A DNA stretch of 42,245 nt, taken from NCBI GenBank assembly GCA_900548465.1, contig URKY01000018.1, positions 1 to 42,245 on the forward strand. The letters run 5' to 3'. The position numbers and the translations under genes were made by a program. Below are positions 2,615-42,245 of this stretch, one piece after another. The DNA comes from an uncultured Eubacterium sp. (GTDB taxonomy: Bacteria > Bacillota > Clostridia > Lachnospirales > Lachnospiraceae). Numbering within the stretch: the first letter of the stretch is position 1; the number at the start of each line of letters is the position of its first letter. The notes under the pieces are model-generated. The model was not told the origin of the DNA, ran no database searches, and saw only the letters and a list, made by a program, of their open reading frames with translations.

Positions 2615-2869
2615 GGCAGATAAACAATGTCTCCCTCAAATAATTTTTTTCAATATAATAAAAGGTAGTTTTCAAAACATGTCGCATTTCTATCTTTACT
2701 GCGCCGCATATTAACAATTGCTTCCGCAAACTCAGCCACTTCGTGGCTTCAGACAATGCTCCGCAATTGTAGCTATGCTCGTAAAGATGACGAAATGCTT
2801 CCAATCGTTTTGAAAACTACCTTTTATTATATTGAAAAAAATTATTTGAGGGAGACCTGTTTATCTGCC
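2615..2869. repeat. Palindromic element, copy 1 (conserved core, private arms)
   Basis: Left arm 2615-2678 and right arm 2807-2869 are reverse complements except for one mismatch and one single-base indel. Between them is a 128-nt core (2679-2806) that itself folds: GCATTTC/GAAATGC, ATCTTTAC/GTAAAGAT, CAATTGC/GCAATTG, and an apical hairpin AGCCAC-TTC-GTGGCT. Symmetry continues weakly outward (AAAAATAC near both stop codons), so the whole convergent intergenic gap is one fold-back structure. The core recurs at 25265-25393. No transposase and no credible ORF is inside. It could be a MITE-like element, a structured RNA, or a bidirectional terminator. Confidence 0.85.
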
Positions 2870-9119: not shown

Positions 9120-9147
9120 GACCCCGAAAAGAAAATATTGTACTACT

Positions 9148-9304
9148 TTATCGGTAGGTGAGGTTACCATAGGGATTTGGTTTTATCCTAAGATTGCTGC
9201 CGCGAGATTGTGGAGACACAATTAGTTGGTTAGCAGGCTATGTCGTTAAGGCATAACCTAATGCAATTAATATATGCCCTATGATGCTAAAGCTTGAACG
9301 GTGA
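9148..9304 (+). ncRNA. M-box (ykoK) Mg2+ riboswitch
   Basis: Hallmark conserved blocks occur in the right order: GTAGGTGAGG (9154-9163), GCTGCC (9196-9201) and TGCTAAAGCT (9285-9294). The closing stem pairs TTATCG (9148-9153) with CGGTGA (9299-9304), allowing G-U pairs. A rho-independent terminator follows 18 nt later. The downstream gene is the Mg2+ channel mgtE, the expected target. Known members terminate transcription when Mg2+ is plentiful. Confidence 0.92.
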
Positions 9305-9321
9305 CTTAATTTGTGATTTAT

Positions 9322-25217: not shown

Positions 25218-25441
25218 GGGGAACATACTCCTGGACAGGAATTAAAAACACTGTTAATTAAAACATGTTGTATTTCTATATTTGCTGCGCCGCATATTAA
25301 CGATTACTTTCGCAAACTCAGTCGCTATGCGACTTCAGACAGTGCTACAGCAATCGTAGCTATGCTCGCAAATATTACGAAATACTGCCAATCGTTTTAA
25401 TTAACAGTGTTTTTAATTCCTGTCCGGGAGAATATTTCCCC
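25218..25441. repeat. Palindromic element, copy 2 (conserved core, private arms)
   Basis: Left arm 25218-25264 and right arm 25394-25441 are reverse complements; the inner 32 nt are perfect and the outer part differs by a few bases. The arms have no resemblance to those of copy 1. The 129-nt core (25265-25393) aligns with copy 1 over its full length at roughly 85 percent by eye, and many differences are paired: AGCCAC/GTGGCT becomes AGTCGC/GCGACT, GCATTTC/GAAATGC becomes GTATTTC/GAAATAC, and CTTTAC/GTAAAG becomes ATTTGC/GCAAAT. It lies 15 bp after the antiporter stop codon, inside its 3' untranslated region, and accounts for most of the 334-bp gap to spmB. Confidence 0.88.
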
Positions 25442-42192: not shown

Positions 42193-42245
42193 TGCCCAGT
42201 TCCGGAATCGAACCAGAGACACGAGGATTTTCAGTCCTCTGCTCT
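42193..42245 (-). tRNA. tRNA-Phe (GAA), 5' part outside the window
   Basis: On the minus strand the anticodon arm is GAGGA-CTGAAAA-TCCTC, giving anticodon GAA, followed by the T-arm TCTGG-TTCGATT-CCGGA and acceptor ACTGGGC with discriminator A. CCA is not encoded. A T-run follows directly and probably terminates it. About 20 nt of the 5' end lie beyond base 42245. Confidence 0.93.

Follow-up and report, generated by a model that had tools for sequence, protein, structure and literature searches.

Two copies of a structured element in a 42,245-nucleotide stretch of DNA from an uncultured Eubacterium species (the window, meaning that entire stretch) are members of a dispersed repeat family that reaches no Rfam cut-off. 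The element is multi-copy and intergenic, its core covaries, its two arms match each other within a copy, and at one site core and arms are absent together from relatives. The reading we prefer, to which we assign a probability of about one in two, is that of a MITE-like mobile repeat in which the arms are recopied by template switching and the cores are kept alike by conversion between copies. On that reading, the family would consist of short, non-coding, MITE-like mobile repeats of Lachnospiraceae-type bacteria, each with a conserved core hairpin and two inverted-repeat arms.

A scan of the window for inverted repeats (arms of at least 20 nt, partners within 600 nt) yielded seven pairs, with arms of 47–50 nt in copies 1 and 2 (Table 1) and 21–25 nt in the other five. 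Both copies fold better than 200 of 200 shuffles (z scores of −17.5 and −14.5), and both are real, far beyond chance. A covariance model, R1, matches copy 1 at 2670–2815 with 168.7 bits and copy 2 at 25256–25402 with 163.2 bits, the latter score coming from a model built partly from copy 2 itself. Copy 1 lies between two convergent genes and copy 2 between two minus-strand genes, one of which encodes a CPA2-type antiporter; the other matches nothing but a hypothetical-protein family, and that weakly. An Rfam 15 scan placed no family at its gathering score on either window element or on 20 further loci, and all nine matches from a permissive scan around copy 2 are sub-threshold.

Table 1. Positions of the two element copies and of other RNA features in the window
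Feature	Position	Strand	Remarks
Copy 1 left arm, outer continuation	2615..2626	+	pairs with 2858–2869 (read from alignment)
Copy 1 left arm	2629..2678	+	50 nt; 100% complementary to 2807–2856
Copy 1 conserved core	2679..2806	+	128 nt between arms
Copy 1 right arm	2807..2856	+	partner of 2629–2678
Copy 1 right arm, outer continuation	2858..2869	+	pairs with 2615–2626 (read from alignment)
Copy 2 left arm	25218..25264	+	47 nt; pairs with 25394–25440, 91% complementary
Copy 2 core, conserved and covarying	25265..25393	+	129 nt between arms; 83% identical to copy 1 core (E = 1.6e-33)
Copy 2 right arm	25394..25440	+	partner of 25218–25264
M-box (magnesium) riboswitch	9143..9312		94.1 bits
tRNA gene	42193..42245	−	truncated by the window end

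Relatives were reached through the antiporter, which led to 39 loci, the nearest of them labelled as uncultured Eubacterium, Eubacteriaceae or Lachnospiraceae. Among 23 genomes of the nearest genus, a DNA search found a single long match, in genome G015, with unrelated arms of its own, and a second, short match (L051) at which no arms were seen. A first covariance model, built from the two window copies and the G015 copy, produced 43 matches in 7 of these 23 genomes, two of them weak or short (E values of 1.7e-4 and 0.53); 30 of the 43 lie in G023, all on a single 2.86-Mb contig. With a second model, at least 38 of 397 sampled genomes of the taxonomic family were matched, a lower bound obtained with at most seven candidates scored per genome, and a fuller search of 19 matching genomes recovered 3 to 27 copies in each. 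At roughly 240 nt including arms, and with up to 30 matches per genome, the element is short, non-coding and dispersed, as MITEs are. All 45 entries examined lie in or beside intergenic gaps, with every gene layout represented.

Searches beyond the covariance models returned little: a pattern scan of the genome contigs for the core gave no matches, one IMG/VR pattern scan gave ten stretches that match only as short seeds, another gave three stretches without a model match and the remaining three gave nothing, a phage search with the window core gave four weak matches with E values of about 5, and the other phage and plasmid searches gave none. Contigs carrying L097 (in G015) and L098 (in G014) break at the same base within the core hairpin, and draft assemblies may therefore under-count the family. 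Small open reading frames overlap some copies in the list of reading frames. A T-box leader precedes the element at L066 in G001 and at L058 in G002, two species in which the copy stands ahead of the start of the same gene; at L083 in G023, the sequence immediately upstream of the copy holds a Clostridiales-1 RNA and a fluoride riboswitch.

The preliminary description had stated that the cores of copies 1 and 2 differ by at least five compensatory pairs and that their fold is conserved, and both statements hold. Six two-sided changes, read from a three-copy alignment, separate the two cores, and 17 of the 52 pairs in that alignment show a two-sided change. Among 43 distinct rows, in an alignment fitted to the structure and therefore biased towards it, 86.6% of cells pair compared with 65.8% after shuffling, two-sided cells number 386 compared with 103.9, and the covariation score is 0.460 compared with 0.128 for shuffled and 0.055–0.080 for slid controls. 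The core thus covaries very strongly against both kinds of control. Ordinary wobble is rare in it: among 1,902 reliable cells, 1,737 are Watson–Crick pairs, 36 G-T and 46 A-C combinations; without two columns, A-C outnumbers G-T by 41 to 14. This excess could represent wobble pairing on the other strand. Because of it, and because genes in tandem settings read opposite to the chosen core orientation in 23 of 33 entries, the element may function as a minus-strand RNA, and such wobble could count against a purely DNA-based reading.

Outside the core, complementarity rather than sequence is kept, as had been claimed from the window alone. When the two flanks of a copy are aligned starting at the core edge, the left–right score exceeds that of every one of 150 re-paired controls in 43 of 45 entries; complementarity within copies is also seen across genera. 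The match is strongest near the core: against the 99th percentile of 599 same-genome re-pairings, inverted homology is in excess in 40 of 41 copies over the first 30 nt, in 15 at 30–75 nt, in 6 at 45–110 nt and in none at 75–130 nt (L053 and L060, near-duplicates, and L068 and L093, short, being left out of the 41).

Between copies the arms behave quite differently. Among 29 copies in G023 (L093 set aside), arm identity is 0.80 within a copy and 0.55–0.57 between copies, where a shuffled null gives 0.50 with a 95th percentile of 0.63. Seven G023 pairs with core identities of 0.94–0.97 have arms at 0.58–0.60; one of the seven, L070/L083, has common arms (0.83/0.77). The transition is sharp, at least in G023, where it was measured: in the 17 pairs whose cores reach an identity of 92% or more, column identity falls from 64–100% inside the core to mostly 11–64% a few bases outside, with some columns higher.

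A comparison across genomes gives within-copy and between-copy left–right identities of 0.77 and 0.56 for G023, 0.82 and 0.57 for G414, and 0.76 and 0.55 for G214 (re-pairing p ≤ 0.0005 for each), 0.82 and 0.64 for G402, and 0.77 and 0.68 for G253. It used 20 of 27 G414 matches and 15 of the 16 G214 matches were read; copies that are short, divergent or poor in arms were omitted (L093, L068, L285, L236, L239, L271 and L162), among which L236 and L239 have arm scores of 4 and 2, counter to the rule. In G414, with L366 left out, seven copies form an arm-sharing group, and other pairs with cores near 93% identical have unrelated arms. For G023, G414 and G214, the arms thus mostly bear no relation from one copy to another, even where the cores they enclose are as much as 97% identical. 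In G396, G319, G265 and G390, however, within-copy and between-copy values are equal or nearly so and same-side arms agree at 0.85–0.98. The earlier statement that arms share nothing between copies therefore applies, for the most part, to the first three genomes but fails in these four, where copies with common arms, the very finding named beforehand as contradicting it, were encountered. The rule is not absolute.

Whether copies have their terminal inverted repeats in common divides the genomes in the same way: they do in G396, G319, G390 and G265 and mostly do not in G023, G414 and G214. In G319, a 24-bp palindrome is matched 60 times in forward and 66 times in reverse orientation when three mismatches are allowed, compared with none for the control. 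Units lie between copies of this palindrome, whose outer halves vary and whose inner halves are constant. At L191/L192, for example, it separates tandem cassettes composed of the element and a second hairpin family (spacings of 321–326 nt).

The shared ends of G396 copies also reveal how arms change. Over a 20-nt end in 12 copies (L271 left out), 11 changes are identical on both sides, 20 are one-sided and 2 are discordant. Independent arms would be expected to yield 0.73 both-sided changes, although some variants are common to several copies, so the 11 are not all separate events. Another locus in this genome, L290, is a coreless version in which the two arms meet in a short shared word, representing either a deletion or a coreless form.

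A second example is provided by the L222 site, at which the element is common to G414, G427, G426 and G423. Between G414 and G426, 6 of 22 arm positions have changed alike on both sides and 2 on one side, with arms matching within these copies at 22/22 and 20/22 positions; G423 has indels and was left out of the count, although by reading its arms still match each other. By eye, a partial second right core end and right arm stand in tandem behind the element at this site in G426 (L350) and G423 (L362). At another site, locus A, a comparison of G009 with G015 and G016 aligns the flanks on the minus strand but the element on the plus strand, at 83–84%. The core is therefore inverted relative to the same flanking genes, an observation made at one site and one that recombination between arms would equally produce.

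These both-sided changes, together with the inversion, make arm-to-arm recopying the best fit to the matching of arms, and of the three explanations offered in the preliminary description, arm-to-arm conversion emerges as the best supported. The lack of a wobble preference in the arms also favours recopying. The 20 one-sided changes in the same 12 G396 copies, which are not rare, count against it. According to PMC8604942 (in the part available), template switching between inverted repeats homogenizes arms and inverts spacers, and according to PMC7202029 (likewise in part) it makes Escherichia coli quasipalindromes more perfect. The spacer inversions given for yeast in the available text of the former are 2–5 bp, compared with about 130 nt here.

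Template switching leaves the unrelated arms around near-identical cores unexplained, and a second process is therefore needed. Vertical drift alone is too slow to have produced unrelated arms around 97% identical cores, since the L222 arms of G414 and G427 differ at only 1 of 22 positions. The second process would be either conversion between cores, which we favour, or movement of the core alone. Conversion has modest support from a weak test: compatibility between adjacent core sites exceeds the permuted level, as conversion predicts, at p < 0.05 in 6 of 9 settings (p from 0.0035 to 0.10), with the other three above that level. It ranks higher because core and arms are absent jointly at L209 and because arms are common to copies with similar or identical cores in four genomes.

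At the L209 site, start codon and promoter block are 271 nt apart in G414 and 41–62 nt apart in six relatives (G427, G426, G425, G424, G420 and G419), in which core and both arms are missing together and no palindrome is present. In G422 and G423 this spacing is 112 and 97 nt, and a remnant or a different insertion may account for the surplus; in G118 the promoter block was not found. An imperfect direct repeat of 14–16 nt flanks the G414 element and is single in relatives, as read from the alignment at this one site; no donor of the arms was found among the 26 other G414 loci, a point against the preferred reading. At the copy 2 site, the window carries the whole element between stop codon and terminator, whereas four of seven relatives have only about 8–16 nt there (read from the alignment), a weaker case because the relatives are only about 71–78% identical in flanking DNA. 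For copy 1, the only good match in the genus spans the downstream gene alone, which leaves no empty site to read; the L214 site in G427 is ambiguous, and G214 is the sole genome of its genus. In the comparison of empty sites proposed in the preliminary description, L209 lacks arms and palindrome in six relatives, but at L222 the coreless G422 retains a left-arm-like stretch. That stretch may be a deletion remnant, because by flank identity G422 lies between element-bearing relatives.

An unlikely alternative, if the strongest of those considered, is that only the core moves, bounded by AAAC and GTTT edges, and that it inserts into the middle of palindromes or of hairpins such as terminators, with arms that belong to the landing site. 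The sharp core edges and the unrelated arms around near-identical G023 cores would follow naturally, as would the G319 units between copies of a palindrome that varies in its outer halves and is constant in its inner ones. Many G214 arms resemble terminator stems by eye, and L075 in G023, whose core is 97% identical to that of L070, lacks matching arms and adjoins an apparent separate hairpin. A palindrome to land in is nevertheless missing from the six short L209 relatives, and the short spacing between stop codon and terminator in four relatives at the copy 2 site and the arms common to copies in four genomes also count against such movement. Insertion into terminators, an idea prompted by G214, was checked by counting T tracts, which show no preference for a side (right 3 and left 4 of 13 in G214; 9 and 6 of 29 in G023). 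It is likewise unlikely that the core alone, with edges defined to within a base or two, makes or adopts self-complementary arms at each landing site, for example by fold-back, self-primed synthesis, in which case its terminal inverted repeats would arise afresh with every insertion instead of being inherited.

Fold-back synthesis that duplicates one flank as an inverted copy once the core has inserted is quite improbable as the origin of the arms. This proposal draws on the left-arm-like stretch of G422 and on the inverted homology that extends to 30–75 nt in 15 of 41 copies and to 45–110 nt in 6, but no copy exceeds the 99th percentile beyond 75 nt and the G422 stretch has the alternative origin given above. 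The arms common to copies in G396, G319, G390 and G265 also speak against it, and because core and both arms are absent from six L209 relatives, a pre-existing palindrome and inverted flank copying are both disfavoured there. Least probable of all is selection on an RNA duplex, such as a terminator or stability element, with ordinary compensatory changes keeping the arms paired: strong core covariation, the intergenic positions and a possible minus-strand wobble bias in the core agree with it, but copies occupy all gene layouts and G-T is no commoner than A-C in the arms (21 versus 24 within 25 nt, 32 versus 38 beyond, a weak test in which copies were pooled irrespective of orientation).

Under the preferred reading of recopied arms and converted cores, the unit would arrive together with its arms, presumably moved by a putative trans-acting protein. 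The hairpin would then cause a replicating polymerase to switch template and recopy one arm from the other, so that a mutation in a single arm would be either erased or copied to the opposite arm. Over time, the arm sequence would drift while complementarity stays, and the same switching could flip the core between the arms. Conversion between copies would keep the cores of one genome alike. As it cannot run past the core edge, at which homology ends, it would leave near-identical cores between unrelated arms.

With tens of copies in a genome, the family provides a natural setting for separating homogenization of arms within copies from homogenization of cores between copies. It indicates that the ends of a mobile element can be inverted repeats and still differ from copy to copy, contrary to what sequence-based repeat finders assume, and that a widespread structured element of gut bacteria can lie below every Rfam cut-off. 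If the core moves alone, a new way to make transposon ends would be implied.

Among the open-licence papers covered, including the available parts of two reviews (PMC2229807 and PMC10969869), neither this family nor a class of elements defined by copy-specific self-complementary arms was found. As described in those parts, MITEs and small repeats such as RUP, BOX, Correia and RPE are similarly short, non-coding, multi-copy, intergenic and hairpin-forming, but differ from the present family, in which a conserved core is flanked by arms that vary between copies and match within them. The G396 copies resemble MITEs also in having terminal inverted repeats in common. Quasipalindrome template switching also makes arms alike and inverts the spacer, and in the available portions of PMC7202029 and PMC8604942 it is a mutational process rather than an element, whereas here its proposed target is a mobile family of dispersed copies whose structured spacer measures 130 nt. 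The coding palindromes of Nematomorpha mitochondria likewise vary in sequence between species while keeping arm identity, although they sit inside mitochondrial genes and are not described as mobile in the accessible text of PMC6649704. Integron attC sites, too, are reported to preserve structure with little sequence conservation (PMC2727003), unlike the element described here, which has a strongly conserved centre.
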